A DNA stretch of 64,000 bases from positions 558,001-622,000 of the forward strand of contig NZ_JAGETW010000001.1 in the NCBI RefSeq assembly GCF_017571475.1, given 5' to 3'. Numbering within the stretch: position 1 is the first letter of the stretch; every line of letters begins with the position of its first letter. Origin of the DNA: Thiomicrorhabdus sp. 6S3-12. Its GTDB lineage: Bacteria > Pseudomonadota > Gammaproteobacteria > Thiomicrospirales > Thiomicrospiraceae. Positions 16,681-33,845 of this stretch are shown here, in pieces. The notes under the pieces were generated by a model, which was given only the letters and a program-made list of their open reading frames with translations, ran no database searches and had not been told where the DNA came from. Both the position numbers and the translations under genes were made by a program.

Positions 16681-16719
16681 AAAAAAAAAGCCTTTGAACC
16701 ACCAAATGGTTCAAAGGCT
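16681..16719 (-). terminator. Rho-independent terminator of cynS
   Basis: On the minus strand a perfect 12-base stem AGCCTTTGAACC with its complement and a 7-base loop is followed by nine T. It lies 40 bases after the cynS stop. Confidence 0.95.
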
Positions 16720-16758
16720 TACAAACAAAAACTAATTAAGGAGTTTTACAACAGTCTG

Positions 16759-17202
16759 TTACCAGGCTTTGTAAGGCAGGAACTTACCGTTCATGGTTAC
16801 CACAACACGGTCACCCAGCGGATTCTCTTCTTTATCGATATCCATAGAGAAATCGATCGCACTCATAATACCGTCGCCGAATTTTTCGTGAATCAACTCT
16901 TTCATAGTCGGACCGTAAACACCGACGATTTCGTATAGACGATAGATCAATGGATCTGTCGGAACCGCTTTTTCCCAGCTCTTATGCGGGAATGCCTGCA
17001 ATGCTTCTGCAACATCAGTCCCCAGACCTAGTAACTCTGCAACTTTTGTTGCCGGCTCTGCATCCAGGTGGTTCATACCTAAACAAGCAGAGGTGGTATA
17101 AACTTCACTTAGGCCTGCAGCCGCCGCGATATCAGTCCATCCAAGACCCTTCTCATTTTTAGCCAATACAATTGCTTCAGTCATTGCTACTTTAGTTAAC
17201 AT
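16759..17202 (-). CDS. cynS: Cyanase (cyanate hydratase)
   Basis: 147 residues. Cytosolic decameric enzyme that converts cyanate and bicarbonate to CO2 and carbamate, which decays to ammonia. The catalytic triad is visible as Arg88, Glu91 and Ser114 (RLYEIVGVYG and GDGIMSAIDF), offset by 8 from the E. coli numbering of Arg96, Glu99, Ser122. The N-terminal half is the helical domain with LAKNEKGLGWTDIA. GGGAG precedes the ATG by 8 bases. It is monocistronic with its own strong terminator, and is read from a sigma-54 promoter in the gap it shares with the divergent osmC-like operon. Confidence 0.97.
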   Translation of the reverse strand: MLTKVAMTEAIVLAKNEKGLGWTDIAAAAGLSEVYTTSACLGMNHLDAEPATKVAELLGLGTDVAEALQAFPHKSWEKAVPTDPLIYRLYEIVGVYGPTMKELIHEKFGDGIMSAIDFSMDIDKEENPLGDRVVVTMNGKFLPYKAW

Positions 17203-17251
17203 AGGTTTATCTCCCTCTTTGTATAAAATCGTTAAAAGCCCTGACCTTAAC

Positions 17252-17267
17252 GCATTTCTCGTGCCAA
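17252..17267 (-). promoter_or_regulatory. Sigma-54 promoter of cynS
   Basis: Minus strand TTGGCACGAGAAATGC: an intact TTGGCACG -24 element, then GC at -12 with exactly 10 bases between GG and GC. It lies about 50 bases before the cynS ATG and 91 bases from the palindrome at 17348. Confidence 0.85.
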
Positions 17268-17347
17268 CTCTTTAGGAAGACTTATAACCTACTGTTTTTT
17301 ATAAAGTTTATTAATATTCCCTCAGTCTCTTACGCCCTTTATTGCCT

Positions 17348-17364
17348 ACATTGTCAGACAATGT
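17348..17364. promoter_or_regulatory. Palindromic activator site shared by two sigma-54 promoters
   Basis: ACATTGTCAGACAATGT has perfect 8-base arms around one centre base. Its core TTGT-N3-ACAA recurs upstream of the porin promoter (22930-22942), and a close form occurs upstream of the first ABC operon (28315-28324). Distance to both GG elements (91 and 121 bases) suits a bacterial enhancer-binding protein. Confidence 0.7.
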
Positions 17365-17475
17365 CTATCAATCAATAATCCAAACCTTACATTTGTATTT
17401 AATTGTAACTATTTGTAACCATTCAAAAAAACACAAATTTAATAAACTGTTGAAAATTAAGCGTTTTTAAATTTT

Positions 17476-17490
17476 TGGTATTCCGGACGC
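17476..17490 (+). promoter_or_regulatory. Probable sigma-54 promoter of the osmC-like operon
   Basis: TGGTATTCCGGACGC on the plus strand has GG and GC 10 bases apart, though the bases after GG deviate from CACG. It would start transcription near 17501, about 60 bases before the ATG. Confidence 0.6.
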
Positions 17491-17501
17491 TATGTGTAAA
17501 G

Positions 17502-17523
17502 CATATTTCACAGTCGAAATATG
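17502..17523 (+). repeat. Inverted repeat at the predicted transcript 5' end
   Basis: CATATTTC and GAAATATG, perfect 8-base arms around ACAGTC. It starts almost exactly where the sigma-54 transcript should begin, so it could form a 5' stem-loop in the mRNA or be an operator. Confidence 0.6.
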
Positions 17524-17563
17524 ACTTTGTAAAACCTTGAAAATTCCAATTAGGAGAAAAAAA

Positions 17564-18106
17564 ATGTCTGATGCAGCAGTAGTTATTCCATCATGCCTAC
17601 GTCCAATCGATACTGACGGTCTAAACAAACTGGGTGAAGCGGGTAAAGCAGATCCAAATGCCGTTAAAACTCTAAAATCAAAAACCGTTCTAGAAGGCCA
17701 GTTCAAAAACTATAACTACATTCGCGACCTTCCTGCGATTGTTGTTGATGAACCACCTGGACTACTTGGTGAAGATACTGCACCAAACCCTTCTGAAATG
17801 GCGCTACTTTCTTTGGGTTCATGTCTATCTGTTGGTGTACAGGCGAACGCAACCAACCAGGGCATCCCGCTAACCAAACTGGAAGTTGCACTTGAAGGTG
17901 ACATCAACATCACTGCGGTTTGGGGTACTGGTGACCTTGATCCTAACAAACCTCTAGGTGTAACTGAAGTACGCGCTTTCTTCACAATCGAATCTCCTGG
18001 TACGCCTAAAGAGAAGCTTGAAGAGCTTGTCGCACACGCAATGAAATGGTCTCCAGTAGCTAACACCTACCTGAACCAAGTCAAAATGTCAGGCGAATTA
18101 GTCTAA
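17564..18106 (+). CDS. OsmC family protein
   Basis: 180 residues of the OsmC/Ohr-like fold: an N-terminal strand region, then PNPSEMALLSLGSCLSVGVQANATNQG, the family helix bearing the conserved Cys of the redox site. A C-terminal region with LEELVAHAMKWSPVANTYLN follows. Many relatives reduce organic peroxides using two Cys. Here the second (resolving) Cys is not obvious: CLRP near residue 11 is the only other Cys, so peroxidase activity is uncertain. The start follows AGGAG by 7 bases. It is the first gene of a three-gene sigma-54 operon divergent from cyanase. Confidence 0.88.
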   Translation: MSDAAVVIPSCLRPIDTDGLNKLGEAGKADPNAVKTLKSKTVLEGQFKNYNYIRDLPAIVVDEPPGLLGEDTAPNPSEMALLSLGSCLSVGVQANATNQGIPLTKLEVALEGDINITAVWGTGDLDPNKPLGVTEVRAFFTIESPGTPKEKLEELVAHAMKWSPVANTYLNQVKMSGELV

Positions 18107-18169
18107 ACACGATTTAGTTTGTGTACCGGGATTCAATTACCGGTACACAAAATTCATAAGGAGATCATC

Positions 18170-19264
18170 ATGATTCAAGAAGTGGTCCAAAAAACATTAA
18201 AACCTCTTACAGTCGATATCGACCACGGGAAATACACCACCGAGGTGCTATCCGAGCTGGGTAAAATTGATGCCTACAGCCCGCATATCCCTTCGCAAAA
18301 CGGTGGCAAGCTGGATCTGTTCAAAACCATTCACAACATGGCCCTGGTATCCGAAGAGTGTATGTCGACCGGCTTTATGATGTGGGCACATACGGTCTGC
18401 GCATGGTATATCGAAAACGCAGACAACGAATACCTGAAAACCGAAATCCTGCCGAAAATGATGACAGGCGAACTGTTCGGTGCAACATCTCTGTCCAACC
18501 CGATGAAATACTTTGCCGGTATCGAACCGCTGAAAATTTCTGCGATCGAAACCGAAGACGGCTATATCCTCAACGGCGCTTTGCCATGGGTATCCAACAT
18601 CTGGCCTGAATCCGACAAGCATTTCTTCGGATCGATTTTCCACGTACAAGACGAAGAAGGCAACACGCTTAGAGACGCGATGGCATTGATCCCATGCGAT
18701 CTTGAAGGCCTGACTCTGCAACAGCAGGTTGAATTTGTCGGTATGGAAGGGACTGGAACTTTTGCAATGGTGTTTGACAACGCTTTCCTTCCGAAAAAAT
18801 ACCTACTGGCAGACCCAGTCGGACCTTATCTACAAAAAATCAAAGCCGGATTTGTACTTCTGCAAGCGGGTATGGCCGTTGGCGTTATCCAAGGCTGCAT
18901 TAACGAAATGAATCAATCCAACCTGTCACAAAGCGCAATCAACCAGTATCTGGACAACACGCCGGAAGAACTGCAGGAAGAGCTGAATGACGCGGTAGAA
19001 ATTGTTAAAGAACTTTGTGAGACACCTTTCACACCTGGCGATGAGTTTTTCCGCTCCGTTCTGGAAGCCCGCCTGTTGGGTGCAGAGATTTGTAAACGCG
19101 CGGCAGACTCGGTTATGCAGCATGCCGGTGCAAAAGGCTACATCGTAGATGCGCCTGCACAGCGCAAATGGCGTGAAGCCTATTTCGTGATTATTGTCAC
19201 ACCATCAATCAAGCATTTACGTAAAGAAATTCAACGTCTGGAAGTCGGTCTAGAAGCCGCTTAA
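18170..19264 (+). CDS. Acyl-CoA dehydrogenase-fold flavoprotein of unknown substrate
   Basis: 364 residues with the acyl-CoA dehydrogenase fold. The middle beta domain is [41 protein letters not shown], and the C-terminal helical bundle contains [28 protein letters not shown]. Classical enzymes then have a YEGT-like motif with the catalytic Glu; here the segment reads [15 protein letters not shown], so that Glu is absent. This resembles flavin monooxygenases of the DszC/SfnB group more than true dehydrogenases, though no such activity can be proved from sequence. The start MIQEVV has AAGGAG upstream. It sits between the OsmC-like gene and a rubredoxin reductase, which may supply electrons. 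Confidence 0.85.
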
Positions 19265-19302
19265 AAGCAGCTGAGGCAAGGGCGTTTCAAAGGAGTAAAG
19301 TT

Positions 19303-20679
19303 ATGACCGAAGAATATCGCAAGTACATCTGTAAAGTATGCGGCTTAATTTACGATGAAGAAGAAGGTGATCCGGATTCAGGGCTTGCTCCTGGAACACG
19401 TTTTGAAGACATCCCTGAAGATTGGTACTGCCCTCTATGCCTTGTCAGTAAAGCCGACTTTATTCCGCTGGATCAATTGCCTAAAGCTGTTGCGGATGGC
19501 GACTTGCCGAAACACAAAGTCAGCGAGTATGCCGATGTCATGATTATCGGTTCCGGCTATGCCGGCTGGCAGGTTGCCGAATCAGTTCGTCGTGAACTAC
19601 CTGATGCAGTTATCACACTGATTACCGCCGACGATGGTGTGGTTTACCCTAAACCGTCTTTGTCGATGGCGCTGCGCCAAGAGCGTTCTGCAGAGGACCT
19701 GAAAGAGTATAGTGCACAGCAGAAAGCGACCGAACTCGAGATGGGCGTAAAGACCTTGACTCGCGTTATGTCGGTTAATGAAAAGCGTAAAAAAGTGATC
19801 ACCACCAAAGGAAATTTTCATTACGACAAACTGATCATTGCAACAGGCGCCAAAGCATTGAAACCTGAGGTTGCCGGTACGGTCGGTCATGAAATGGTTA
19901 CTTTGAACGACCTGCCAAGTTATCGTAAATTCCGCAAGTCCATCACGGAAATCGACCACATTACCATTATCGGCGGTGGCCTGATCGGAACGGAAATGGC
20001 GGAAGATCTGGCGGAGGCCGGCATGTCGGTCACAATGATGGTTCGTGAAGAGCAATTAATGCCGGGGATGCTGCCTGAGAAAATCGCCAAAGATCTGGCC
20101 GATAAACTGACCGCAAAAGGTGTTGAAATCCGTTTTGGTCAGATGGTTTCTGAAATGAACGGGGCTAGCGGCAGCTATGAGTTGAAACTAGATTCTGGCG
20201 AACAGCTCAATACCGGCATGGTACTGTCTGCAATTGGTATCGCGCCAAATATCGGACTTGCCAAGAAGCTTAATCTGGAAATCAACCGTGGCATTAAGAT
20301 TAATGACTATTGCCAGACCTCTAATCCTGATGTGTATGCACTGGGCGACTGCGCCGAGTCTGAAGCGGGCGTGCAAGCTTTCTTGGAACCGATTCGACGT
20401 CAGGCAACCGCTATCGCTGCGCACTTAAAAGGCGATAAGGATCTTCCATTCCACGCGGTTTCCCCATTGATTAAAACCAAAACGTCAACTCTGTCGATTA
20501 TGCTGAGCCTGCCGCTTGGTACGAATGATCAGGAAGGCTGGGAGACGGAAACCGACATCGGTGAAAATCATAAGCTGGTGTACAAGGACAACGAAGACCA
20601 CCTGCTCGGTTTCGCCTTGAGCGGCGATCTGGTTAATCAGGCCAATACCCTGTACAAACAGATCAATCCAAACAGCTAA
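19303..20679 (+). CDS. Rubredoxin domain fused to FAD-dependent NAD(P)H reductase
   Basis: 458 residues. The N-terminal rubredoxin domain (about 5-55) has both Cys pairs, [18 protein letters not shown] and [13 protein letters not shown]. Then comes a pyridine-nucleotide-disulfide-type reductase with FAD motif [13 protein letters not shown] (about 80-93) and NAD motif [21 protein letters not shown] (about 225-245), plus the late [16 protein letters not shown]. It should pass electrons from NAD(P)H through FAD to rubredoxin iron within one chain. As the last gene of the sigma-54 operon it is a natural electron donor for the flavoprotein before it. A plus-strand terminator follows. Confidence 0.92.
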
Positions 20680-20710
20680 TTACAGTCCGGCACTTAGCAC
20701 GGACTCCCCT

Positions 20711-21515: not shown

Positions 21516-21564
21516 AAATAAAAACTCTAAAAGAGGAAATTAATCTGCTTAGTTTATTTCACTC

Positions 21565-22788
21565 TTAGAATTTAACTTCACCCCAAATCCATAGTTTGTC
21601 AGTATCAACCGCATATTCGTCTGCTGAATATGAAGCGTACTTAACACCTACAGTATAGTTTTTGCTTAGCTTTTTCGCTGCCAGAAGGTCGTATTCCGTA
21701 CCGTAGTCCGTGCTACCCACATCGGAGCTGAAATCATGATAAGCGGCAGCCAGCTTCATACCGAATGCTTTACCGGATACTTTCAGGTAGTTATCAACCA
21801 GACCGTCTGCAGGCGTTCCACCAACAGGCCCGATAAACATATCCGCCCAACCGTTATACAGGTGAACCGTACCTAGAGGCGTTTGGAACGAGCTTGTACC
21901 GTCGCCACCCAGTTTTTCCTGACCGGCCAGAACCGTAATACCTTTCACAGCAAGACCCAATTCTGCGCGTGTGTAGTCGCCGCCAATATTAAGATCTTTA
22001 GTGTCTTTATATTCTTGCTGATCAGCATATTCCAAATGGTAAACAAGCTTCATGCTTTCACTCAAAGCTGTTTTGCCGGCAAAACGAATACCCATTGTTT
22101 TGCTGTCTGCACCGGTTTCATAATCCAGGAAGTAGCCATATGCACTTAGCTTACCGAATGGAATGCCTGCAAAATCAATTTTACCCGCATGGCTTTTCAT
22201 CTCAATATCCGCACCAACCGGATTGAAGACATTATTGATGTAAGCATAGTTCAGGTTGATTTTCATCGGCAGAGTCGCATTCAAACTCGCACCTGTATAA
22301 ACCTGCTCTTGCTGGCGCCAGCCGACATTACCCAGGAAGCGTGTATCCATAATGATTCGCTGCTTACCGGCTTTGATTTTAAGTCCGTCTGTTTGATAAC
22401 CGACCCAGTACTGGTTCATAGTCGTCATATCCGGATCAAGAACCACGGCTTTCGTGTTGTCGCCACCCGCTTCCGGACCGGCCGGTACAAAGTAATCGCT
22501 GCGATCGTAAGCCGAAGTATTCGACATTTCGACAAAGCCGTTAAAGCCTTGATAAGTACCGGTCAGATAACCTAAACGGGTACGCAGAGTCAAAGCGCCT
22601 GCATCGTCTTTACCATCCTGCTCGACGCCTTCATAACGTAGACGTGCATCGATGCTCGGAGTTCCGCCAGTCAAAGCTTCAGTAAAGCTTTCTGCCGCCG
22701 CCATATTAGGCGCCAAGAAAAGTGAAGCACTTAAAGTTGAAAGACCCAAAACGGAATAAATCTGTCGGGTAAGAGTGTTTTGTTTCAT
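21565..22788 (-). CDS. Outer-membrane porin, alginate-export/OprD-like beta barrel
   Basis: 407 residues with a Sec signal peptide (about 1-32, ending PNMAAA before ESFTEAL). The mature chain has alternating amphipathic strands, starting with PSIDARLRYEGVEQDG and ending with the terminal Phe (WIWGEVKF) needed for BAM insertion. The KAGKQRIIMDTRFLGNVGWRQQEQVYTG segment resembles alginate-export-type porins. AGGAGA precedes the ATG. The gene is monocistronic, has its own terminator and a very clear sigma-54 promoter. It lies next to a sigma-54 activator and an ABC importer operon, so it probably serves uptake of the same solute. Confidence 0.88.
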   Translation of the reverse strand: MKQNTLTRQIYSVLGLSTLSASLFLAPNMAAAESFTEALTGGTPSIDARLRYEGVEQDGKDDAGALTLRTRLGYLTGTYQGFNGFVEMSNTSAYDRSDYFVPAGPEAGGDNTKAVVLDPDMTTMNQYWVGYQTDGLKIKAGKQRIIMDTRFLGNVGWRQQEQVYTGASLNATLPMKINLNYAYINNVFNPVGADIEMKSHAGKIDFAGIPFGKLSAYGYFLDYETGADSKTMGIRFAGKTALSESMKLVYHLEYADQQEYKDTKDLNIGGDYTRAELGLAVKGITVLAGQEKLGGDGTSSFQTPLGTVHLYNGWADMFIGPVGGTPADGLVDNYLKVSGKAFGMKLAAAYHDFSSDVGSTDYGTEYDLLAAKKLSKNYTVGVKYASYSADEYAVDTDKLWIWGEVKF

Positions 22789-22821: not shown

Positions 22822-22838
22822 AGCCCTTTAGGTGCCAA
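22822..22838 (-). promoter_or_regulatory. Sigma-54 promoter of the porin gene
   Basis: Minus strand TTGGCACCTAAAGGGCT: strong -24 element and GC at -12, with 10 bases between GG and GC, 34 bases before the ATG. Confidence 0.85.
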
Positions 22839-23105: not shown

Positions 23106-24767
23106 CTAGCCTAATCCCAGTTTTTTAAATCGATAGTTATACTGCCTTGGTGTCATATTTAACATCCTTGCCGCATGACTTTTATTACCGTGTGCTCTCT
23201 CCAGAGCCTGCAGCAGAATATCTTTTTCAGATTCGCTGACTTTCCAGTAATTGCGCTTGATTTCATCGCTGCCGTTTCTGGACATAACCTGCGGAGCAAA
23301 TGTCGCCTCATATTGTGGCTGCGGCTCCATGCGCGTCGATATCTCGTCGTTCACCGAAATCGCTTTGACCTCATCTGGCTGCTCGGTCGTTTCGCCATTA
23401 AAGACAATTCCGCTCTCCTCGCGGATGATACGTCGAATCAGCCGGTCGGTAATCATCTGACCGTCTTCGGCCAATAACACCGCCCGTTTGATAATATTTT
23501 CCAGCTGACGGATATTCCCCGGCCACTCATAAGTTTCCAGGAACGCAATAGCCCCGCGGTCAAAAATCACATTGGTGTGATACTCTTGGTTGGCCTGATT
23601 CAGGAAATGGCGGGCCAACAAGCGAATATCGCCGTCACGCTCGCGCAATGGCGGCAATTCGATAGGGAAAACATTTAAACGATAGAATAAATCCAAGCGG
23701 AAGTTACCCTCGTTTACCGAAGTTTGCAGGTTTTTATGCGAAGCGACGATGATTCGCACATCAACCGGTATCGGTTTGTTCGAGCCGACGCGGGTAATGG
23801 TTCTCTCTTCAAGTACTCGCAGCAGTTTAGCCTGCAAGCCAAAATCCAGATCCCCGATTTCATCCAGGAACAAGGTGCCGTGATGCGCCATTTCGATTTT
23901 ACCCGGCTTGGTCTGAGTTGCACCGGTGAAGGCACCTTTTTCGTGACCGAACAGTTCAGATTCCAGCAACTCCAGCGGAATCGCCGCACAGTTTATCGCG
24001 ATAAAAGGCCCGTCCTGGCGATTGGACGCCATGTGCAGCATACGCGAAAACTTCTCTTTACCGGTTCCGGACTCACCTTTAAGCAAAACGGTCACCGAAA
24101 CATTCGCCGCACGCGCGGCCTTGCTTAAAGCGCCCATCACAGCAGGACTTTCCCCGATAATGCCGTACTGACTTCCCTGACTCAACGCCACGGCACGCAG
24201 CTGCTCGTTCTCTTCTTTAAGAACCTGAGTCTGCTTCTCAAGCATGGCATTAACCGAAAGAATCTCACTGACAAAAATCGCAATCAACTTAAGGATGCTC
24301 AGATCTTTATCCAACGCACGGGAGCGGTTTTTCAGACGGTTAACGGCTAAAACTCCGATGGTTCTCCCTTTCCGGATAATCGGCACGGCAATAAACGCGA
24401 CCGGCTCCTGCGGCAGCGTCGAACGGTCAACCGTACGGCACAGGTAGTCTTCTTCCAGGTCGATATTGGGAATAATAATCGGCATCCCCATTCTCATTAC
24501 CTTACCGGTAATCCCTTCATTGTCCGCGAACCGGCTGCGAGCGATTTCCACTTCGGTCAAACCGAACGCGTAAGCGGTATAGAGAATCGGTTCACTCTTC
24601 TCCCTCAGCAGAACTCTGCCGCGGTTCAACCCCATCTGACGTGAAATCAGACTCAAAATGCGCACTATCGCCTGTTCCGGTTCATTGGCGCGCTCAATCT
24701 GTTCTGCGGCTTCCTTGATCACCACATATTCAGAATGTTCTGCAATATCGAGTGCTTCCAATGCCAT
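23106..24767 (-). CDS. Sigma-54 dependent transcriptional activator, NifA-like (GAF-AAA+-Fis)
   Basis: 553 residues. A GAF sensor domain (about 25-165) is followed by a sigma-54 interaction AAA+ domain (about 200-435) with Walker A GESGTGKE, the sigma-54-contacting loop GAFTGA and Walker B GTLFLDEIGDL. A C-terminal Fis-type helix-turn-helix follows (KSHAARMLNMTPRQYNYRFKKLG). The NifA-like layout suggests a bound small ligand or partner protein as signal rather than phosphorylation. GGAGG precedes the ATG by 5 bases. Position between the porin and the ABC importer operon makes it the likely activator of the TTGT-N3-ACAA-associated sigma-54 promoters. It is not near nif genes, so nifA itself is not implied. 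Confidence 0.9.
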   Translation of the reverse strand: MALEALDIAEHSEYVVIKEAAEQIERANEPEQAIVRILSLISRQMGLNRGRVLLREKSEPILYTAYAFGLTEVEIARSRFADNEGITGKVMRMGMPIIIPNIDLEEDYLCRTVDRSTLPQEPVAFIAVPIIRKGRTIGVLAVNRLKNRSRALDKDLSILKLIAIFVSEILSVNAMLEKQTQVLKEENEQLRAVALSQGSQYGIIGESPAVMGALSKAARAANVSVTVLLKGESGTGKEKFSRMLHMASNRQDGPFIAINCAAIPLELLESELFGHEKGAFTGATQTKPGKIEMAHHGTLFLDEIGDLDFGLQAKLLRVLEERTITRVGSNKPIPVDVRIIVASHKNLQTSVNEGNFRLDLFYRLNVFPIELPPLRERDGDIRLLARHFLNQANQEYHTNVIFDRGAIAFLETYEWPGNIRQLENIIKRAVLLAEDGQMITDRLIRRIIREESGIVFNGETTEQPDEVKAISVNDEISTRMEPQPQYEATFAPQVMSRNGSDEIKRNYWKVSESEKDILLQALERAHGNKSHAARMLNMTPRQYNYRFKKLGLG

Positions 24768-25148: not shown

Positions 25149-25982
25149 TCAGCTTGCATGCCATGAGTAACGTTTGATCAGGAATACCGCTACCGCATCC
25201 AGCAGGTAACCGATCACACCGATTACCACGACCATCGCCGCCAGGGTGTCATAAGCCAGGGTGTCACGCGCATCGTTGATTGCGTAACCCAGACCCGAAG
25301 TAACTCCGAGATACTCGGCAGGAACCAGGACAACCCATGCAACACCGACCGCCAGACGGATACCTGCAAACACATCTTGTGCGATTGCCGGCATAATCAC
25401 TCTACGCAACATCTGGAAACCATCTGCACCCAGGTTGCGAGCGACACGGAACCAGTTTGGATCGATACGCTGCACGCCGTGCGCGGTACCAAATACAATC
25501 GGCCAAACCGTCGCCATAACAATCAGGAAGACAATCGCACCGTCCCAAGTATCATACGCCAGTACCGCAATCGGCATCCACGCCAGAGGACTGATCATGC
25601 GCAGGAACTGGAATGGCATGTTAGCAACCTGACGCATTCCTACGAAGTACCCCATCAAAACACCCAAAGGCACCCCGATGACAATCCCCCAGAACAGACC
25701 ATAGATGATTCGTTCCAGACTGGAAATAATGGTATCGTTCAGAAATTCCGTACCAATCAGCGCCCAAAGCGCGCTCAGGGCTGGGCCCGGAGCAAAATCC
25801 GCAAAGGCTTCGGTATCCGGGTTGTTAGCGATCAGAAGCCCGCCGATCCACCACATAAACAGCAGGATCGACATACCCAGAATGGAATTAATTGTACTTT
25901 GCGCCCATACAGGCATCTTTTTAAAATTCACCGATAACTGAGAGAAGAACTCAGCCGGCATACTTATTTGTGCCGTACTCAT
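25149..25982 (-). CDS. ABC transporter permease, NrtB/CmpB/SsuC type (system 1)
   Basis: 277 residues with about six membrane segments and the EAA loop WFRVARNLGADGFQMLRRVIMPAIAQDVFAGIRL. The family imports nitrate, cyanate, bicarbonate, taurine or sulfonates. Its start overlaps the binding-protein stop (ATGA), so the two are coupled. It is last in an ATPase, binding protein, permease operon. The closeness of cyanase favours a nitrogen compound, perhaps cyanate, but substrate is not proven. Confidence 0.9.
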   Translation of the reverse strand: MSTAQISMPAEFFSQLSVNFKKMPVWAQSTINSILGMSILLFMWWIGGLLIANNPDTEAFADFAPGPALSALWALIGTEFLNDTIISSLERIIYGLFWGIVIGVPLGVLMGYFVGMRQVANMPFQFLRMISPLAWMPIAVLAYDTWDGAIVFLIVMATVWPIVFGTAHGVQRIDPNWFRVARNLGADGFQMLRRVIMPAIAQDVFAGIRLAVGVAWVVLVPAEYLGVTSGLGYAINDARDTLAYDTLAAMVVVIGVIGYLLDAVAVFLIKRYSWHAS

Positions 25983-27238
25983 AGTTCAAACACCTCTTGA
26001 CGGACGGTTGGGTTAGCAGGATCAACGCCCTTAACCTTATCCCAAACACCGAATTTATCCATTGCGTTCTTAACATAGTCGTAGTTGACCAGGTCTTTGG
26101 TTACAAAATCGGTATCCAGATTCTGCAAGAAAGTGGTGTCACCGGTAACCAACGTCTCTTTCAGCTGATCGACGATAAACTTGGTCGCTGAAGGATATGG
26201 ATACGGGTTAAAGTCAATACGACCCACATCCCAATCTTCGTGTTTGATCGCATCAGGATTCTGGTAAGAAGCCGGGTTGTAGTCCGTCATCGCTTTAATA
26301 ACCGCTTTAGCCGGCATTGGAAGGTAACGCTTACCTTCGCGGGACAGCATCTTGGCCACTTCTTCTTTATTTTCCTGAGCGTAAACAGAACCGCGAACAA
26401 CCGCATTCATAACTTTCTGCGACCACTCTTGCTGCTGCTGGACATGCTCGTCATGCATACAAACAACACAACATGGGTGGTTTTTCCAGATATCACCGGT
26501 AAAGCGCAGCATCTTCGCACCCGCTTTCATTTCACCGAACGCATTGAACGGCTCAGCTACGATATAAGCGTCGATTTTCTTCGCCGCAAGTGCAGGAGGC
26601 ATATCCGGTGGAGGCATGATCTGCAGGTTAACCTGATTCGGCTTAAGCTTATCTGTCTGATCCTGAATCACTGGCTCAAGACCGGCATTTTTCAAAGCCA
26701 TCTGCAGCACGATATTGTGCATTGAATACCAGTAAGGCACGGCAATCTGCTTACCGCCTAGGTCTTCGAATTTATCAACACCGGTATGTTTACCGACAAC
26801 CAGACCGGAACCGTTGGTGTGCGCCCAACCGGTAATAGTGACCGGGAAATTATTGTTATAACGCATCCATACTGGAATCGGTTTCAGGAAGTGAACCAGG
26901 TTAAATTTGTGTGCCGCAAAGCCTTCAATCAACGGCGACCATCCACGAATCAAAGTCGGCTTCTCAACTTTAAGACCTTCTTCTTCAAAGAAACCCATAC
27001 CGTGAGCAACCAATAGAGGGCTGGCATCGGTAATCGGCAGGTAACCGATCTTGACCACTTCGTCAAAAGGCTTGTCTGCAGCCATCGCCTGGCTCGACAT
27101 ACTCATCCCACCCATCGCGGCGGCTAGACCACCCGCAGCGGCCATAGAGTCTAGAATAAACTCACGACGACCCTTCTCAGGGTTAAAAACGTAGTCGTGG
27201 TGTGACATAGGGTTATCAGGGCTGCAATATTGACACAT
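25979..27238 (-). CDS. Tat-exported NrtA/CmpA-like substrate-binding protein with N-terminal Cys motif (system 1)
   Basis: 419 residues of the NMT1/NrtA-type binding fold: VKIGYLPITDASPLLVAHGMGFFEEEGL at the start of the mature chain, IAVPYWYSMHNIVLQMAL in the middle and KNHPCCVVCMHDEHV later. The twin-arginine motif GRREFILD is at residues 23-30, followed by a hydrophobic stretch ending SSQAMA. Unusually, the chain opens with MCQYC, a CxxC pair ahead of the Tat motif. The start is fixed by AGGAGAG 7 bases upstream. The second system at 30605 has the same architecture with a longer Cys-bearing extension. Confidence 0.9.
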   Translation of the reverse strand: MCQYCSPDNPMSHHDYVFNPEKGRREFILDSMAAAGGLAAAMGGMSMSSQAMAADKPFDEVVKIGYLPITDASPLLVAHGMGFFEEEGLKVEKPTLIRGWSPLIEGFAAHKFNLVHFLKPIPVWMRYNNNFPVTITGWAHTNGSGLVVGKHTGVDKFEDLGGKQIAVPYWYSMHNIVLQMALKNAGLEPVIQDQTDKLKPNQVNLQIMPPPDMPPALAAKKIDAYIVAEPFNAFGEMKAGAKMLRFTGDIWKNHPCCVVCMHDEHVQQQQEWSQKVMNAVVRGSVYAQENKEEVAKMLSREGKRYLPMPAKAVIKAMTDYNPASYQNPDAIKHEDWDVGRIDFNPYPYPSATKFIVDQLKETLVTGDTTFLQNLDTDFVTKDLVNYDYVKNAMDKFGVWDKVKGVDPANPTVRQEVFEL

Positions 27239-27310: not shown

Positions 27311-28153
27311 TTAAGACGCTTGCTGTAATGAATCGTCAACCGGTGGCTTAACTTCACGTTTAGGCACTTCCAGACGTTCGAATGGTTTTTTCTGTTTGGC
27401 TTGGTCGATCTTCTCGAATTCGGCAAACAGTTCGTCTTTAAGGGTGATAAATTCGCCGCTGTTGCGGTCACGAGGGTAATCAAGCGGAATGTGCTTTTCG
27501 CCAACAATCTGTCCCGGGTTGTGGCTCATAATGACAACCTGATCGGCCATGGCGACGGCTTCTTCGATATCGTGAGTAACCAGAACCATGGTGATATTCT
27601 GATCGTGACAGATCTGCGCCACTTCGGTTTGCAGAGCGGTACGGGTAAAGGCATCCAGCGCCGAGAAAGGTTCGTCCAGCAACAGAACTTCCGGCTCGGT
27701 TGCCAGTGAACGTGCCAAAGCAACACGCTGCTGCTGACCACCGGAAAGATCCTGAACGTTTTTATCTTTATGTTCACTCAGGCCGACCATATCAAGCAGT
27801 TCTTCCACTCGATCTTTTTTCTGTTTATAGGTTCCGGCGAAAACCAGACCCAAAGCGGCGTTCTCGCGCACTGTCATCCATGGGTATAGGGAAGGTTTCT
27901 GGAACATCATGTTCCATTTGGCGCTTGGTTTGGTTACAGTATGCGCGCGGATACGCACAGCGCCTTCCGTCGGCATTAATAGACCTGCTACCATTTGCAG
28001 CAAGGTAGACTTACCACAACCGCTTCGGCCGATAAGAGCGGTTAACTGTCCCTGAGGAATCGAAAGGTTGATGTCATCCAGAGTCGGCATTTCCTGTTTG
28101 CGGTTGTAATAATGCGTCAGGTCGGAAATCCAGATGGGAGATGCGGTTGACAT
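27311..28153 (-). CDS. ABC transporter ATP-binding protein, NrtD/SsuB type (system 1)
   Basis: 280 residues, Walker A GRSGCGKST, signature LSGGQQQR, Walker B VLLLDEPF and H-loop VLVTHDIEEA. The start MSTASPIW follows AGGAG by 7 bases; the longer frame has no ribosome site. First gene of its operon, preceded by a control region with sigma-54-like elements. A basic, Pro-rich tail of about 30 residues ends the protein. Confidence 0.92.
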   Translation of the reverse strand: MSTASPIWISDLTHYYNRKQEMPTLDDINLSIPQGQLTALIGRSGCGKSTLLQMVAGLLMPTEGAVRIRAHTVTKPSAKWNMMFQKPSLYPWMTVRENAALGLVFAGTYKQKKDRVEELLDMVGLSEHKDKNVQDLSGGQQQRVALARSLATEPEVLLLDEPFSALDAFTRTALQTEVAQICHDQNITMVLVTHDIEEAVAMADQVVIMSHNPGQIVGEKHIPLDYPRDRNSGEFITLKDELFAEFEKIDQAKQKKPFERLEVPKREVKPPVDDSLQQAS

Positions 28154-28431: not shown

Positions 28432-30321
28432 TCAGGACGCCTTAAAGCCATACTTGTCGATATTGAATTTTTTAAGTTTGGAATTCAGAGTCGTCGGATT
28501 AATCTGCAGCAATTCCCCGGCGCCGCCTTTACCGAATATTTTGCCTCCGGATTGCTCCAATGCCTGAATAAGATTCTCCCGTTCCCGACTGCGCAACTCG
28601 TTATAGGTGAGCACCCCCTGACTCTGATCCGACGCAGCATATCCCCCTGATTCCTGAGCAACAGGCAAAAAATCCAAATTAAAGACCAGCTGCCCGTCGT
28701 GCGCGAGAATCACCGTTCGTTCAATAACATGAATCAGCTCTCGAATATTGCCGGGCCAGTGATACGCCTGCAACTGATGAATATGCTTCACTTTTAACTG
28801 CAGGCCTGCTTTGGTGTATTTCTCGCAGGCCAGTTTAAGGAAGTGCTGGGCAAGCACTGGAATATCGTCCCCCCGCTGTCTGAGCGGTGGCGACTCTATC
28901 GGAAAGACATTCAAGCGGAAATACAGGTCTTCACGAAAGGCTTTACGCCTGACCTCTTCAAGCAAATTACGATTAGTCGCAGCAATAATGCGCACATTCA
29001 CCTTGCGAGTCCGAGAGTCACCCAAGCGTTCAAACTGCTGCTCCTGCAACACCCGCAACAACTTACTTTGCAACTCATAAGGGATTTCACCAATCTCATC
29101 CAGAAAAATCGTTCCGCCGTCAGCCAGCTCAAAACGCCCGACCCGATCGCTCACCGCACCGGTAAAAGCCCCTTTGGTGTGCCCGAAAAACTCGCTTTCA
29201 AACAGGTCTTTCGGGATAGAGGCGCAGTTTACGCGAATCAAAGGCCGGTTCTTGCGCAGGCTGTTTTCATGGATTGCGCGGGCAATCAACTCCTTACCGG
29301 TACCGGATTCCCCGGTAATCAGGACATTGGCGTCGGTCGGACTGACCAGACGGATCTGCTCGACAATTTTCTGCACCGCCTCGCTGGTACCGACAATTTC
29401 ATTAAAGTGATAGACCTCTTTATAGGCCTCCTGCAAATAAGCATTTTCCAATTCCAGCCGACGCTTCAGCTCCTCCATCTCTTTGAGCATCTGACCGATT
29501 CTCGCTTCGGCTTTTTTCCGTTCGCTCACATCTCTGAAAACAATCACCGCTCCGACAACCTGCCCTTCGTCCATAATCGGCGTACTGACATATTCGACCG
29601 GAAAGGCTTTTCCCTGTTTGTTCCAGAAATACTCGTTTTGCACCTGTTTGGTCCGCCCATCCTGAAAGGCCGAATAGATATGACAGGATTCCACATGATA
29701 ATGCGAGCCGTCATGATGGCTGTGGTGGATCATCCGGTGCATGTTTTCCCCAATCAACTCATCCGCTTTCCAGCCAAGTATCTCTTCGGCAACCGGGTTC
29801 AGAAAAGTCGCATTTCCGTTGATATCGACGCCATACACCCCCTCTCCGACGGCATTCAATATCAAGCTGTTGGTCAGTTCGAACTCTTCGAAGAACCCCT
29901 CAACCGTCTTCCATTCCTGCAATCCTTTGCGATGCAGCTCGTTTACCGTCAGAAAGCGGTTTTGAGACTGCAGCGCCTGCTTGGACAGCAAGCGCAAAAG
30001 AATATTCCGTTCCGTCCCTTCTATCAGACTTGCCGCAACCAACAGTTCTTCTTCGCCGCCATCTTCGGTGCGAAGCGAAAGATCACCCGACCAGGCCGTC
30101 TTCTTATGTAAAACCTCTTGCGAAAAAACGATAAACTCCGGCCAGCACCCGGAAAAAATCCGATCCGCGGAGACACTTTGCGATAACGCCTCTCGCCCGG
30201 TAAAACCGAGTAAATCTCTTGCCTGAGCATTGATCAACTGAACCTCGTTATCGGCAGGATCAATCAATATCAGCGCGTCCGGGCTCTGCTCGAAAAGTAA
30301 AAACTCCATCGTATTTCTCAT
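28432..30321 (-). CDS. Sigma-54 dependent activator with PAS sensors (PAS-AAA+-Fis)
   Basis: 629 residues. Two PAS-type sensor regions (about 1-110 and 155-270, the second with GVYGVDINGNATFLNPVAEEILGW and a PAC segment VVGAVIVFRDVSERK) precede a short coiled linker. The AAA+ domain (about 310-545) has GESGTGKE, the GAFTGA loop and GGTIFLDEIGEI. The C-terminal Fis-type helix-turn-helix ends the chain. The ATG at 30321 has GGAG 10 bases upstream; the longer GTG start is possible. It is divergent from ABC system 2, whose sigma-54 promoter and triple operator lie in the shared gap, so it most likely controls that system. Confidence 0.9.
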   Translation of the reverse strand: MRNTMEFLLFEQSPDALILIDPADNEVQLINAQARDLLGFTGREALSQSVSADRIFSGCWPEFIVFSQEVLHKKTAWSGDLSLRTEDGGEEELLVAASLIEGTERNILLRLLSKQALQSQNRFLTVNELHRKGLQEWKTVEGFFEEFELTNSLILNAVGEGVYGVDINGNATFLNPVAEEILGWKADELIGENMHRMIHHSHHDGSHYHVESCHIYSAFQDGRTKQVQNEYFWNKQGKAFPVEYVSTPIMDEGQVVGAVIVFRDVSERKKAEARIGQMLKEMEELKRRLELENAYLQEAYKEVYHFNEIVGTSEAVQKIVEQIRLVSPTDANVLITGESGTGKELIARAIHENSLRKNRPLIRVNCASIPKDLFESEFFGHTKGAFTGAVSDRVGRFELADGGTIFLDEIGEIPYELQSKLLRVLQEQQFERLGDSRTRKVNVRIIAATNRNLLEEVRRKAFREDLYFRLNVFPIESPPLRQRGDDIPVLAQHFLKLACEKYTKAGLQLKVKHIHQLQAYHWPGNIRELIHVIERTVILAHDGQLVFNLDFLPVAQESGGYAASDQSQGVLTYNELRSRERENLIQALEQSGGKIFGKGGAGELLQINPTTLNSKLKKFNIDKYGFKAS

Positions 30322-30381
30322 TGCGTTATCACTCCGAAATGAATACTGATTCACCTACAGCAACCAGCAAACCAAAACTAC

Positions 30382-30429
30382 GAAATTTCCGAAAACTCAC
30401 TATGAAAATTCCCAAAACCATGAAATTTC
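30382..30429. promoter_or_regulatory. Triple palindromic activator site upstream of ABC system 2
   Basis: Three copies of an 8-base palindrome, GAAATTTC, GAAAATTC and GAAATTTC, at 30382, 30404 and 30422. The last is extended to ATGAAATTTCAT. Centres are 22 and 18 bases apart and 78-118 bases upstream of the -24 element at 30503. Confidence 0.65.
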
Positions 30430-30501
30430 ATAACGACAAAAAGCCGCAAAAAAGCAACTAAAACCCTGTCCTTTCAAATACTTAAAAAACATTCCATGTA
30501 A

Positions 30502-30517
30502 TGGCACACGCACTGCT
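30502..30517 (+). promoter_or_regulatory. Sigma-54 promoter of ABC system 2
   Basis: TGGCACACGCACTGCT: perfect TGGCAC at -24 and TGC at -12, with 10 bases between GG and GC. The predicted leader is about 75 bases. Confidence 0.85.
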
Positions 30518-30604
30518 CTATAGAAAGCACGCTTTAATGCAAACCACCGATGTTTGCACTGAATTAGTAATAAATGATTTATTTGAGTGCGAGGTTCTAA
30601 AACA

Positions 30605-32080
30605 ATGTCTTTCAAAAGCTTGAACAACCCATTTGATGCCAACAAAAGTTTGCTTCATACCTCTGACTGCAGCTGTCCTATGTGCCAGGCGGAAAAAACC
30701 GGCCCTGCGATGAGCGAAAAAGAGAAACAGGCGTTTATCGAACAGAAAGCCGATCAGTCGGTACAGATGAAACACTCTGCGGAGCATCACGCCGTAGACG
30801 ACTCGATGCCGAGCAATTCGGAGGAAATGATCGATCGCGCCGTAGAAAGCGCCGTAGTTCGTTCCGTATTCGGTCACAACGACTTCAAACGCCGCTCTTT
30901 CCTAAGCATGATCGGAAAAGGAACCGCGGCTGCGGTACTGGGAAGCGTATTCCCAATGGAAGCCGCCAAAGCCGCCATGAAAGAGACCATGGGGCTGGGC
31001 AAGCTGGAGAAAAGCAAACTGAATATCGGTTTCGTTCCGATTACCTGCGCGACACCGATCATTATGGCCCACCCGATGGGCTTCTATGAGAAATACGGTC
31101 TGGATGTCGATGTTATCAAAACCGCCGGTTGGGCGGTCGCACGCGACAAATCTCTGGCTAAGGAGTACGACGCATCGCACATGCTGACCCCTATGCCGCT
31201 GGCGATGTCGATGGGCGCCGGTTCAACGGCCAAACCGTTTATTATGCCGACGGTCGAAAACATCAACGGTCAGGCCATCGTCCTGCATAACGATCACAAA
31301 GACAAACGCGACCCGAAACAATGGAAAGGCTTCAAGTTCGGTGTGCCGTTTGAGTATTCGATGCACAACTTCCTGCTGCGTTACTATGTCGCCGAACACG
31401 GATTGGATCCGGACAAAGACATCCAGATTCGCGTCGTTCCGCCGCCGGAGATGGTCGCCAACCTGCGTGCCGGTAACCTTGACGGCTACCTGTCGCCTGA
31501 TCCGTTCAACCAGCGTGCCGTATGGGAAAAAGTCGGCTTTATCCATACTCTGACCAAAGACATCTGGGAAGGGCACCCTTGCTGCGCCTTTGCCTGCTCG
31601 AAAGAGTTTGCGGTCCAGAACCCGAATACCTACGGCGCGCTGCTGCGTTCGATTATCGATGCCACCGAATATTCAGCCAAACCGGAAAACCGCAAGGAAA
31701 TTGCCGAAGCGATTTCGCCGAAGAACTACCTCAACCAGCCGGTTCCCGTCGTTCAGCAGGTTCTCACCGGGCGCTATGCCGACGGCCTGGGCAGCGTAAT
31801 GAACATTCCTGACCGTATCGACTTCGATCCGTTCCCGTGGCATTCGATGGGCGTCTGGATTCTGACGCAGATGAAACGCTGGGGCTACATCAAAGGCGAT
31901 GTCGATTACCAGAAAATCGCCGAAGAGGTTTATACCGCAGCCGAAACCGGTCGTGTTATGAAAGAGCTCGGATATGAGCCGCCGGCCAAAACTTATGAGA
32001 ACTACACCATTATGGGTAAAGAGTTCGACTACACCCAACCGGAAGCCTATATCGACAGCTTCAAAATCAAACGCACCTAA
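30605..32080 (+). CDS. Tat-exported NrtA/CmpA-like binding protein with long Cys-bearing N-terminal extension (system 2)
   Basis: 491 residues. The mature binding domain begins near KLNIGFVPITCATPIIMAHPMGFYEKYGL and keeps the family segments FGVPFEYSMHNFLLRYYV and EGHPCCAFACSKEF. The Tat motif FKRRSFLSM lies unusually deep, at residues 94-102. Ahead of it is an extension of about 90 residues with three cysteines at 22, 24 and 27 (CSCPMC) and a His- and acid-rich stretch. The start MSFKSL was chosen over an upstream GTG because GAGG lies 10 bases before it. First gene of a sigma-54 operon with permease and ATPase. Confidence 0.9.
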   Translation: MSFKSLNNPFDANKSLLHTSDCSCPMCQAEKTGPAMSEKEKQAFIEQKADQSVQMKHSAEHHAVDDSMPSNSEEMIDRAVESAVVRSVFGHNDFKRRSFLSMIGKGTAAAVLGSVFPMEAAKAAMKETMGLGKLEKSKLNIGFVPITCATPIIMAHPMGFYEKYGLDVDVIKTAGWAVARDKSLAKEYDASHMLTPMPLAMSMGAGSTAKPFIMPTVENINGQAIVLHNDHKDKRDPKQWKGFKFGVPFEYSMHNFLLRYYVAEHGLDPDKDIQIRVVPPPEMVANLRAGNLDGYLSPDPFNQRAVWEKVGFIHTLTKDIWEGHPCCAFACSKEFAVQNPNTYGALLRSIIDATEYSAKPENRKEIAEAISPKNYLNQPVPVVQQVLTGRYADGLGSVMNIPDRIDFDPFPWHSMGVWILTQMKRWGYIKGDVDYQKIAEEVYTAAETGRVMKELGYEPPAKTYENYTIMGKEFDYTQPEAYIDSFKIKRT

Positions 32081-32099
32081 CCCTTAAAAGGAAAGCATT

Positions 32100-32930
32100 A
32101 TGTTGAAATCCCTAAAAGTGAAATCTGCGCTGCTTTCCATCATCTTTCTTGTCATTCTGCTTGGAATCTGGGAAGGCGCCAACCAGGCGCCGACCGATAC
32201 CAAGCCGCTAACGGAATATGAGATGTTGATGGGAGGAGCCTCTCAGGAGGCCCGAGTACCGCCTCCATCGGAAGTGATCGAACTCGGATTCAAAGAACTC
32301 AGCGACCCTTTTTATGATGCGGGTCCGAATGATAAAGGGATCGGCATACAACTGGGCTACTCTATCTACCGGGTTATGGTCGGCTTTCTGCTGGCCGCGG
32401 CGATCGCCATCCCGATCGGTTTCCTGATCGGCATGTCGCCGCTGATGTATAACGCCCTGAATCCATTTATACAGGTGTTACGCCCCATTTCGCCTCTGGC
32501 ATGGATGCCGCTGGCACTGTTTATCATTAAAGATTCGGAAATCTCGGCGATTTTCGTCATTTTCATCTGTTCAATCTGGCCGATGCTGATCAATACCGCT
32601 TTCGGGGTAGCTAATGTCCGCAAAGACTGGATCAATGTGGCTCGCACCCATCAACTCAGTCCGCTGCAAACGGCGATGCAGGTCATCCTGCCGGCCGCGG
32701 CACCGACTATTCTGACCGGGATGCGTATCTCCATCGGGATTGCCTGGCTGGTTATCGTCGCGGCAGAAATGCTGGTCGGTGGAACCGGTATCGGTTATTA
32801 CGTCTGGAACGAATGGAACAACCTGGATCTCGCAAGCGTAATTTTCTCGATCTTTATGATCGGGGTAATCGGCATGCTGCTCGATATGATGCTGGCTTAT
32901 GCAGCCCGCTGGGTGACTTATCAGGAATAA
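32100..32930 (+). CDS. ABC transporter permease, NrtB/CmpB/SsuC type (system 2)
   Basis: 276 residues with about six membrane segments. The EAA loop is WINVARTHQLSPLQTAMQVILPAAAPTILTGMRI. An extra periplasmic region (about residues 30-85) follows the first segment. It lies 19 bases after the binding-protein gene and 20 bases before the ATPase gene. It belongs to the same family as the permease of system 1 but is clearly divergent, so it is not a recent duplicate. Confidence 0.9.
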   Translation: MLKSLKVKSALLSIIFLVILLGIWEGANQAPTDTKPLTEYEMLMGGASQEARVPPPSEVIELGFKELSDPFYDAGPNDKGIGIQLGYSIYRVMVGFLLAAAIAIPIGFLIGMSPLMYNALNPFIQVLRPISPLAWMPLALFIIKDSEISAIFVIFICSIWPMLINTAFGVANVRKDWINVARTHQLSPLQTAMQVILPAAAPTILTGMRISIGIAWLVIVAAEMLVGGTGIGYYVWNEWNNLDLASVIFSIFMIGVIGMLLDMMLAYAARWVTYQE

Positions 32931-32950
32931 ACAGGAATAAGGGAGTATCC

Positions 32951-33796
32951 ATGAAACACCACTTTTTACAGATCGAGAATCTCAAAAAGAGTTACCCGGG
33001 GCCGGATAAAGACAGTGAACTGGTCATTTTCGAGAACGCTAACTTCACCATCGACAAAGGGGAGTTCGTCTGCGTCATCGGTCACTCCGGCTGCGGCAAA
33101 TCCACGATCCTCAATATTCTCGCCGGACTTGACGAAGCCAGCGACGGCATTGTCATTATGGACGGCAAGGAGATTTCCGGTCCAAGCCTGGAAAGAGGCG
33201 TGGTTTTCCAGAACTACAGCCTGCTTCCATGGCGCACCGCTCTGCAAAACGTCACCTTCGGCGTTCAGGCGCGCTGGCCTGAATGGTCCAAGGACAAAGT
33301 TCAGGAACACAGTCTGAGATTCCTTGAACTGGTCGGACTTAAAGGCGCCGAAGATCGCAAGCCATCACAGCTTTCCGGTGGAATGCGTCAAAGGGTCAGT
33401 ATTGCCCGGGCCTTTGCGACCCAGCCGCAACTGTTATTGATGGACGAGCCTTTCGGTGCACTGGATGCCCTGACGCGTGGCGTCATTCAGGAAGAGCTGA
33501 TCAAAATCTGGGAGGAGAGCAAACAGACCGTGTTTATGATTACCCACGATGTCGATGAAGCGATTCTTCTGGCGGACCGAATCCTTTTGATGACCAATGG
33601 GCCGAAAGCCAGAATTGCCGAATCGGTCAAGGTCAGCATTCCGCGTCCGAGAAAACGCACCGAAATCATTCATCATCAGGATTATTACAAGATCCGCAAC
33701 CATCTGGTCGACTTTCTGGTCGATCGCTCCAAGCAGGACATCACCGTCCTCAACCCCAAAGACGCCTCTCCTAAAATCATTGATCTGGCCAGTTAA
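32951..33796 (+). CDS. ABC transporter ATP-binding protein, NrtD/SsuB type (system 2)
   Basis: 281 residues with Walker A GHSGCGKST, signature LSGGMRQR, Walker B LLLMDEPF and H-loop MITHDVDEA. The start MKHHFLQ follows AAGGGAG. The tail carries IPRPRKRTEIIHHQDYYKIRNHLVDFL, as in NrtD/CynD-type ATPases. Last gene of the operon, followed by a strong terminator. Confidence 0.92.
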   Translation: MKHHFLQIENLKKSYPGPDKDSELVIFENANFTIDKGEFVCVIGHSGCGKSTILNILAGLDEASDGIVIMDGKEISGPSLERGVVFQNYSLLPWRTALQNVTFGVQARWPEWSKDKVQEHSLRFLELVGLKGAEDRKPSQLSGGMRQRVSIARAFATQPQLLLMDEPFGALDALTRGVIQEELIKIWEESKQTVFMITHDVDEAILLADRILLMTNGPKARIAESVKVSIPRPRKRTEIIHHQDYYKIRNHLVDFLVDRSKQDITVLNPKDASPKIIDLAS

Positions 33797-33809
33797 TCTG
33801 GCTGCAACA

Positions 33810-33845
33810 AAAAAGGCGCCGAATTCCCCTCGGCGCCTTTCTTCT
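33810..33845. terminator. Bidirectional terminator between convergent genes
   Basis: AAAGGCGCCGA pairs with TCGGCGCCTTT around a 7-base loop, with A and T runs on both sides. It serves the ABC operon on the plus strand and the NifX-family gene on the minus strand. Confidence 0.9.

Follow-up and report, generated by a model that had tools for sequence, protein, structure and literature searches.

The gene block and its spread

The window analysed here comprises 64 kb of the 2.55-Mb genome of Thiomicrorhabdus sp. 6S3-12, whose nearest named relatives in genome searches are Thiomicrorhabdus, Hydrogenovibrio and Thiomicrospira. A 17-kb part of it combines a cyanase gene (cynS) with genes for an OsmC-like protein, a flavoprotein of the acyl-CoA dehydrogenase (ACAD) fold, a rubredoxin reductase, two ATP-binding cassette (ABC) importers and two sigma-54 activators. 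The gene order is cynS, osmC–acad–rubR (same strand), a porin-like gene, act1, importer 1 (permease, binding protein, ATPase), act2 and importer 2. Pfam and NCBIfam profile searches agree with the identities given to the cyanase, OsmC, ACAD-fold protein, rubredoxin reductase and importers in a preliminary description of this DNA, and resolve its two sigma-54 activator genes into one of GAF type and one of PAS type. Positions in the window and strands are as follows:

16759..17202, minus strand: cynS, cyanase (TIGR00673, 178.8 bits against a cut-off of 113.3; PF02560)
17564..18106, plus strand: osmC, one-cysteine OsmC-like protein (PF02566; C87, with Ser163 at the second Cys position)
18170..19264, plus strand: acad, flavoprotein of the ACAD fold, Thr344 in place of the catalytic Glu (acyl-CoA dehydrogenase Pfam domains)
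19303..20679, plus strand: rubR, rubredoxin fused to FAD rubredoxin reductase (PF00301, PF07992, PF18113)
21565..22788, minus strand: outer-membrane porin-like protein (PF13372, Alginate_exp, 21 bits, under the cut-off of 25.2)
23106..24767, minus strand: act1, GAF-AAA-HTH sigma-54 activator, core regulator (Pfam)
25149..25982, minus strand: permease of importer 1 (ABC1; PF00528)
25979..27238, minus strand: substrate-binding protein of importer 1 (SBP1; PF13379; N-terminal CxxC, twin-arginine signal, HPCC motif)
27311..28153, minus strand: ATPase of importer 1 (PF00005)
28432..30321, minus strand: act2, PAS-AAA-HTH sigma-54 activator, accessory (Pfam)
30605..32080, plus strand: substrate-binding protein of importer 2 (ABC2; SBP2; HPCC motif, CxC ahead of a twin-arginine signal)
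32100..32930, plus strand: permease of importer 2 (PF00528)
32951..33796, plus strand: ATPase of importer 2 (PF00005, scored on an open reading frame with an earlier start)

The cynS product exceeds the curated TIGR00673 cut-off and is thus a member of the CynS family, and both importers are NrtA/SsuA-type ABC systems. The genome also contains a gene for the sigma-54 factor itself, recognized by its Sigma54_AID domain. Terminator-like hairpins lie behind cynS, rubR, the porin gene and each of the importers, and one more separates porin and act1, a placement consistent with separate transcription units; 30 such sites were counted, shuffles giving 20.

Most of this block belongs to a conserved, horizontally spread, sigma-54-linked gene set with its own NifA-like activator, hereafter the module. 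In a close sample of 58 genomes (the source genome and 57 relatives), acad (at least 70% identity) is present in 19, the source genome included, and SBP1 (E of at most 1e-20) in exactly the same 19; cynS scores over its cut-off in all 19 module genomes vs 2 of the 39 others. When 20-kb stretches around acad were compared in 18 relatives, osmC, acad, rubR and importer 1 were found together in every one (the permease being cut by the stretch end in one case), so that the conserved neighbourhood expected from the preliminary description does exist. The same stretches contain cynS in 17 cases (the remaining one, L022, starts at a contig end, and cynS stands at the end of a different contig of its genome), act1 in 17 (in L044 it lies outside the stretch) and the porin gene in 11. 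A wider draw, in which 397 other Pseudomonadota were taken evenly over the phylum, gave acad (E of at most 1e-60) in 15 genomes. The cynS gene is present in 12 of them and in 54 of the other 382 (Fisher p about 5e-8, not corrected for relatedness), and in 8 of the 15 it lies within 10.5 kb of acad.

Finally, 109 loci, including the window, were chosen for holding acad; contig ends make the counts lower bounds, and L001–L020, L039–L044, L046, L048, L049 and L123–L138 were left out as short or duplicate, L020 being too weak a match. In this set, osmC directly adjoins acad in 100 loci and rubR in 93, and a binding protein (88 loci), a sigma-54 activator (79), cynS (75) and a rhodanese (42) occur within 10.5 kb. 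The module recurs, not always complete, in Halothiobacillaceae, in Burkholderiales and on plasmids of Alphaproteobacteria and Marinobacter. Compact plasmid copies have been found in Marinobacter and Acetobacter, both with cynS, in Rhodobacteraceae and Pseudosulfitobacter, both with a sulfurtransferase, and in Methylocystis and Corynebacterium, with neither gene in the annotated stretch. Of the first four plasmids examined, three are predicted to be conjugative, and a search of viral contigs gave eight pattern matches and no relative. Two kinds of recurrent neighbour were discarded: open reading frame clusters 3 and 9–13, judged from their lengths and places to be antisense frames, and a MetH-like gene, taken as a chromosomal neighbour. 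Beside the block, at 12725–16561, lies a further ABC importer (binding protein, two-domain permease, ATPase with a TOBE domain), whose permease and binding protein stand at the same place in only one of the 18 relatives' stretches, that of the near-identical L021.

Sigma-54-like promoters

Four clear GG-N10-GC promoters (cynS, the osmC operon, porin and importer 2) and a fifth, weaker one (importer 1) had initially been proposed for this block. Counted on both strands, the bare motif occurs 563 times in the window, and a consensus search allowing three mismatches gave 78 matches against a shuffle mean of 102, that is, fewer than in shuffles. The motif alone therefore proves little, and counting bare sites was abandoned as uninformative in favour of a weight matrix, built from a sigma-54 consensus with weights and evaluated with shuffles. 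The following elements were scored in the window:

17251..17266, minus strand: predicted sigma-54 promoter of cynS, TGGCACGAGAAATGCG (13.7 bits, fourth best in the window, p=0.005)
17476..17491, plus strand: weak sigma-54 element of the osmC operon, TGGTATTCCGGACGCT (6.1 bits, p=0.04)
22822..22837, minus strand: candidate sigma-54 promoter of the porin gene, TGGCACCTAAAGGGCT (8.9 bits, p=0.065)
30502..30517, plus strand: predicted sigma-54 promoter of importer 2, TGGCACACGCACTGCT (14.8 bits, joint best of the window, p=0.005)

Conservation was assessed in two sets. The near set comprised the window and its relatives, among them L021, almost identical to the window (250 nt upstream, 200 first-order shuffles each, p floor 0.005). 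At p<0.05, an element precedes cynS in 18/18 rows and osmC in 16/19, the importer-1 ATPase in 7/19 (with uncertain start sites in the relatives), porin in 5/12 and act1 in 4/18, vs 0/19 for each of acad, rubR and A1sbp (importer-1 binding protein), which served as internal controls. The rows for act2 (4/17) and the importer-2 binding protein (A2sbp, 2/19) consisted mostly of paralogous matches in the relatives and were not used. The distant set, from locus L050 upward, took in 200 nt before each gene and its first 20 nt (100 shuffles, p<=0.05) and gave elements ahead of osmC in 48/76, the importer-2-type binding protein in 39/52, rhodanese in 21/42, act1 in 31/55 and cynS in 11/53, against 5/88 for acad, 3/76 for rubR and 1/16 for SBP1; in many of these loci cynS and rhodanese lie inside an operon. 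Sigma-54-like promoters therefore accompany the module, mostly at the operon-leading gene, and they recur in several classes of Pseudomonadota. The predicted -24/-12 elements are thus conserved at operon-leading genes, as in a sigma-54 regulon, with the exception of importer 1 in the window. There, the upstream intergenic region has no GG-N10-GC and its best matrix match reaches p=0.20, for which reason the fifth promoter was rejected. The other four fared differently: those of cynS and importer 2 stand on the window alone, that of osmC through its conservation, and that of porin in part. The preliminary description is therefore confirmed in its genes and conserved neighbourhood and not in every promoter, and its single regulon holds for most of the block, act2 and importer 2 being accessories and importer 1 having no promoter in the window.

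Two further sites were observed. The other joint best sigma-54-like site of the window, TGGCACACCTTATGCT at 39967–39982 (plus strand), lies about 80 nt before a FliS-like flagellar gene (40065–40484). In addition, a perfect palindrome, ACATTGTCAGACAATGT, is present at 17348–17364 between cynS and osmC and is a possible activator site; loosely similar motifs occur in 12 of 18 intergenic regions, a count for which no background was computed.

Indirect indications of rpoN dependence come from Bradyrhizobium sp. DOA9, where gene 50927, annotated as 'OsmC-like', is reported from RNA-seq to be strongly down in rpoN mutants and is listed with a sigma-54 element, TGGCACGCTCCATGC, at -58 (PMC13207237). 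Gene 50926 ('fatty-acid metabolism') is suppressed, a cynS of this strain is also down, and an element, TGGCATGCTCCTTGC, is listed at -36 for gene 50923, which encodes a binding protein of nitrate/nitrite type (PMC13207237). In the passages concerned, the study treats these genes separately, and its gel-shift section names no promoter assignable to the 50923–50927 locus (PMC13207237). The string TGGCACGCTCCATGC also precedes osmC in loci L142 and L146, and TGGCATGCTCCTTGC precedes the gene for the binding protein of importer-2 type in L143 and L146. DOA9 genes 50923–50927 appear to be the counterpart of the module, and the genes that are down in the rpoN mutants would include those for OsmC, the ACAD protein and cyanase.

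The flavoprotein, its partners and the substrate

The acad product has the ACAD fold (model with pLDDT 93.9; TM about 0.8 to SCAD and other acyl-CoA dehydrogenases) and aligns with acyl-CoA dehydrogenase over nearly its full length. Together with the Pfam domains, this would suit ordinary fatty-acyl metabolism that happens to lie near a cyanase, a reading that is nevertheless very improbable. The catalytic Glu of acyl-CoA dehydrogenases, which lies on the C-terminal helix (SCAD Glu368 type), is replaced by Thr344, as placed by gap-free extension of the alignment, and this Thr is invariant in 39/39 ACAD sequences; at the same position, nine plasmid relatives have Thr in eight cases and Ser in one. 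Moreover, a rubredoxin rather than ETF stands beside the ACAD gene, the importers are of anion type, and no acyl-CoA genes are among the recurrent partners identified. The protein is further marked by a signature (SNxMKxxxGxE, LPWxxN and TP(S/A)) that extends to relatives of 24–27% identity in Agrobacterium, Roseomonas, Deinococcus, Bartonella and on a plasmid of Synechococcus elongatus; the plasmid relatives show isolated deviations from it, and the Corynebacterium copy departs from it further. Models for acryloyl-CoA reductase, SfnB and DszC give it 18–60 bits vs curated cut-offs of 431–850 (for SfnB, TIGR04022, 21.8 vs 430.9 bits), so that it is not a member of the SfnB family. An apparent CMD–ACAD gene fusion in L113 (579-aa frame) was rejected, its upstream part having neither a CMD domain nor similarity to the CMD protein of L105.

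The second partner, the OsmC-like protein, conserves C87 in 100/100 sequences and has Ser163 at the second site in at least 93%, and hence does not have the two catalytic cysteines of OsmC/Ohr peroxidases. This bears on the proposal that OsmC, the ACAD protein and rubredoxin reductase repair cyanate or electrophile damage, the importers bringing in cyanate only. Such a stress role would agree with the OsmC family name, with the presence of cyanase and a likely cyanate importer, and with the DOA9 authors' view of their OsmC gene as oxidative-stress-associated (PMC13207237). It is improbable all the same, given the missing peroxidase cysteine, and the NifA-type control and dedicated second importer suit nutrition better than repair. 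In L105, L116, L151 and L152, an AhpD-like CMD protein with a CxxCxxxH motif adjoins acad and no OsmC was found; L151 and L152 have, besides, only a short rubredoxin-matching stretch beside acad, and CMD genes are annotated in three of five plasmid copies around SBP1 relatives. The rubredoxin route and cyanase are accordingly present in most, not all, module copies, and from the replacement of OsmC by CMD, the reduced rubredoxin and the gaps in cynS it follows that the most constant parts are the importer, the flavoprotein and a thiol protein.

The two importers are associated with different parts of the module: importer 2 goes with cyanase and importer 1 with the flavoprotein. Among 47 loci with both an importer-2-type binding protein and cynS, 35 have the two at most 2.8 kb apart on the same strand, and genomes G005, G018 and G033 have a second cynS beside such a binding protein; in the window, importer 2 is not next to cynS. 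On this reading, importer 2 would take up cyanate and importer 1 a parent compound. A clean split of roles is countered by 51 loci that hold the importer-2 type only, where importer 2 may carry the parent compound. Both act2, linked to acad in 8/109 loci, and importer 2 are accessories outside the invariant core. An invariant Cys pair (HPCC) is present in 37/37 SBP1-type and 55/55 SBP2-type proteins. Both binding proteins also have an N-terminal Cys motif ahead of the twin-arginine signal, CxxC (27224–27238) or CxC (30668–30676), and these cysteines are kept in 21–22 of 37 SBP1-type and 52 of 55 SBP2-type copies.

Several partners have been found that concern sulfur. A two-domain rhodanese is a recurrent one, directly adjoining acad in 10/109 loci; among the 58 close genomes, its orthologue (E of at most 1e-40) is confined to 11 of the 19 with the module, and the source genome has it about 9 kb beyond the window. 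GST and DsbA-like genes are present in some copies. The copy at L150 (6043–10628) is followed by a type-2A encapsulin (SrpI-like) and a class-V aminotransferase of the cysteine desulfurase type, neighbours that provide a link to sulfur nanocompartments. Among 46 plasmid records, the neighbourhoods of five SBP1 relatives were looked at, and in all five an acyl-CoA-dehydrogenase-type gene adjoins the importer. In S. elongatus the ACAD and ABC1 relatives have a cysteine synthase gene close by, and the plasmid that bears them has been described as carrying numerous sulfur-related genes (PMC8049743). The rhodanese, this cyanobacterial plasmid and the encapsulin/desulfurase neighbour point to sulfur besides nitrogen.

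Apart from cyanase, there is some carbon–nitrogen context. A 40%-identical one-Cys OsmC relative is found on a Rhizobium plasmid (L158, 2905–8338) in a run of same-strand genes that starts with a three-subunit enzyme resembling nitrile hydratase and thiocyanate hydrolase and a cobalt transporter (CbtAB), and an aquaporin is part of the cluster. A nitrile hydratase alpha gene is present elsewhere in the genome in 9 of the 15 acad genomes of the phylum draw vs 60/398 overall, without correction for kinship; the same search found none in the 58 close genomes.

One explanation for this sulfur context, unlikely but of some weight, is organosulfur scavenging, in which ACAD, ABC1 and the thiol protein would strip sulfur from a sulfonate, thioether, isothiocyanate or other compound, cyanase being a separate nitrogen-scavenging gene under a shared sigma-54 regulator. 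The binding proteins are nearest to SsuA-family and SaoX models, below cut-off; the plasmid copies of S. elongatus, Roseomonas, Agrobacterium, Deinococcus and Bartonella are without cynS in the annotated stretch; and the ACAD-fold enzymes DszC and SfnB act on sulfur compounds, although the matches to them here are weak. On the other hand, both genome samples show a strong enrichment of cyanase, and cynS shares a strand with the core genes in the plasmid copies of Marinobacter and Acetobacter. The selenoprotein Sao system was also considered and set aside, the similarity being weak, below cut-off and confined to binding protein and permease.

The absence of the catalytic Glu, the one-Cys OsmC and the recurring sulfur partners suggest uptake of a small anion containing sulfur and nitrogen. 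On these grounds, the module may tentatively be regarded as a sigma-54-controlled scavenging system in which such an anion, probably thiocyanate if this reading is right, is imported and oxidised to cyanate. The substrate would carry sulfur together with a C–N unit and would yield cyanate, and thiocyanate offers the simplest fit, with a likelihood somewhat short of even. Importer 1 would bring in the anion (most likely thiocyanate, SCN-). The ACAD-fold flavoprotein, supplied with electrons from NAD(P)H by way of the FAD reductase and rubredoxin, would use O2 to oxidise the substrate sulfur. The single Cys of OsmC, or the CxxC of its AhpD-like substitute, may then take the sulfur as a mixed disulfide or persulfide, freeing cyanate; rhodanese would pass the sulfur on, and cyanase would convert cyanate to NH3 and CO2. 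Importer 2, often in one operon with cynS elsewhere, would bring in cyanate directly. The earlier proposal that the block imports and degrades a small nitrogen compound by way of cyanate fits as regards the intermediate and missed the sulfur side.

Cyanide or nitrile oxidation is a further alternative, in which the flavoprotein would be a cyanide or nitrile monooxygenase making cyanate, and rhodanese would trap escaping cyanide as thiocyanate. Rhodanese and cyanase, the classic partners of cyanide, are indeed both present, and cytochrome bd/cioA genes lie near two copies (L153 and L166). The OsmC relative of L158 adjoins an enzyme resembling nitrile hydratase. This alternative is nonetheless rather improbable: HCN diffuses and should need no importer, yet one accompanies acad in 19/19 genomes, and the sulfur-related plasmid context would be left unexplained.

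Several observations weigh against thiocyanate oxidation to cyanate by the module. The L158 hydrolase matches nitrile hydratases better than it does thiocyanate hydrolase (229.5 vs 189.8 bits). Two related hydratase clusters have no OsmC, and three OsmC relatives looked at on Azospirillum, Microvirga and Acinetobacter plasmids have no module genes, for which reason L158 is a single observation. The best 50 of 683 fold matches of the ACAD protein are all of acyl-CoA dehydrogenase type and include no known monooxygenase. In 8 of the 19 module genomes this type of rhodanese is absent, and cynS is not within 10.5 kb in 34/109 loci, some of them cut by contig ends and some absences, such as the Rhodobacteraceae plasmid L119. 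Lastly, Guyparkeria SCN-R1 (L061) has both the module and a thiocyanate dehydrogenase homologue. Its cyanase activity is reported as not measurable, and the authors of that report warn that cyanase is an unreliable marker of the cyanate pathway (PMC6504805; likewise PMC5328954).

Relation to known systems

The module ACAD shares its fold and a near full-length alignment with the acyl-CoA dehydrogenases (SCAD/butyryl-CoA dehydrogenase) and with the monooxygenase branch (DszC, SfnB, HsaA); it differs from the acyl-CoA dehydrogenase branches in the Thr at the Glu position, its own signature and its rubredoxin partner. The solved structure nearest to the AlphaFold model of OsmC is 2OPL (GSU2788), titled only OsmC-like protein, which has the same fold and an SPV motif at the second cysteine site at 31% identity. 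Another comparison is with the cyanobacterial cynABDS operon for cyanate uptake and cyanase. Like it, the importer-2 type combines an NrtA-type importer and cyanase in one operon (the 35 of 47 loci mentioned above), a likeness of gene order; unlike it, the module adds a second, distinct importer and a flavoprotein system. The 46-kb plasmid pANL of S. elongatus PCC 7942 has an ACAD-like gene (26% identity) followed by a homologous ABC importer (46% for the binding protein), a cluster that is presumably sulfur-regulated. This copy shares the Thr and HxCC motifs with the module; its annotated stretch lacks OsmC, rubredoxin and cynS. As for thiocyanate, the thiocyanate dehydrogenase route likewise makes cyanate, and clusters for thiocyanate hydrolase (scnABC) also include a NitT/TauT ABC importer, and cyanase can be part of them (PMC5328954). 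Unlike both, the module has a flavoprotein and rubredoxin in place of a Co or Cu enzyme. In the open PMC literature, searches for the module and for a link between thiocyanate and cyanase gave no paper that treats the module as one system.

Parts of the module are annotated as fatty-acid, stress or nitrate genes, despite the occurrence of its acad gene in 15/397 Pseudomonadota genomes and on plasmids. To recognise the module as a single system provides a substrate that can be tested, a new ACAD-fold sub-family and a possible role for a one-cysteine OsmC. Several heterotrophs have been reported to use thiocyanate nitrogen, and the passage reporting it names no enzyme for that use (PMC5328954). 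If thiocyanate is the substrate, the module would supply an enzyme for it.

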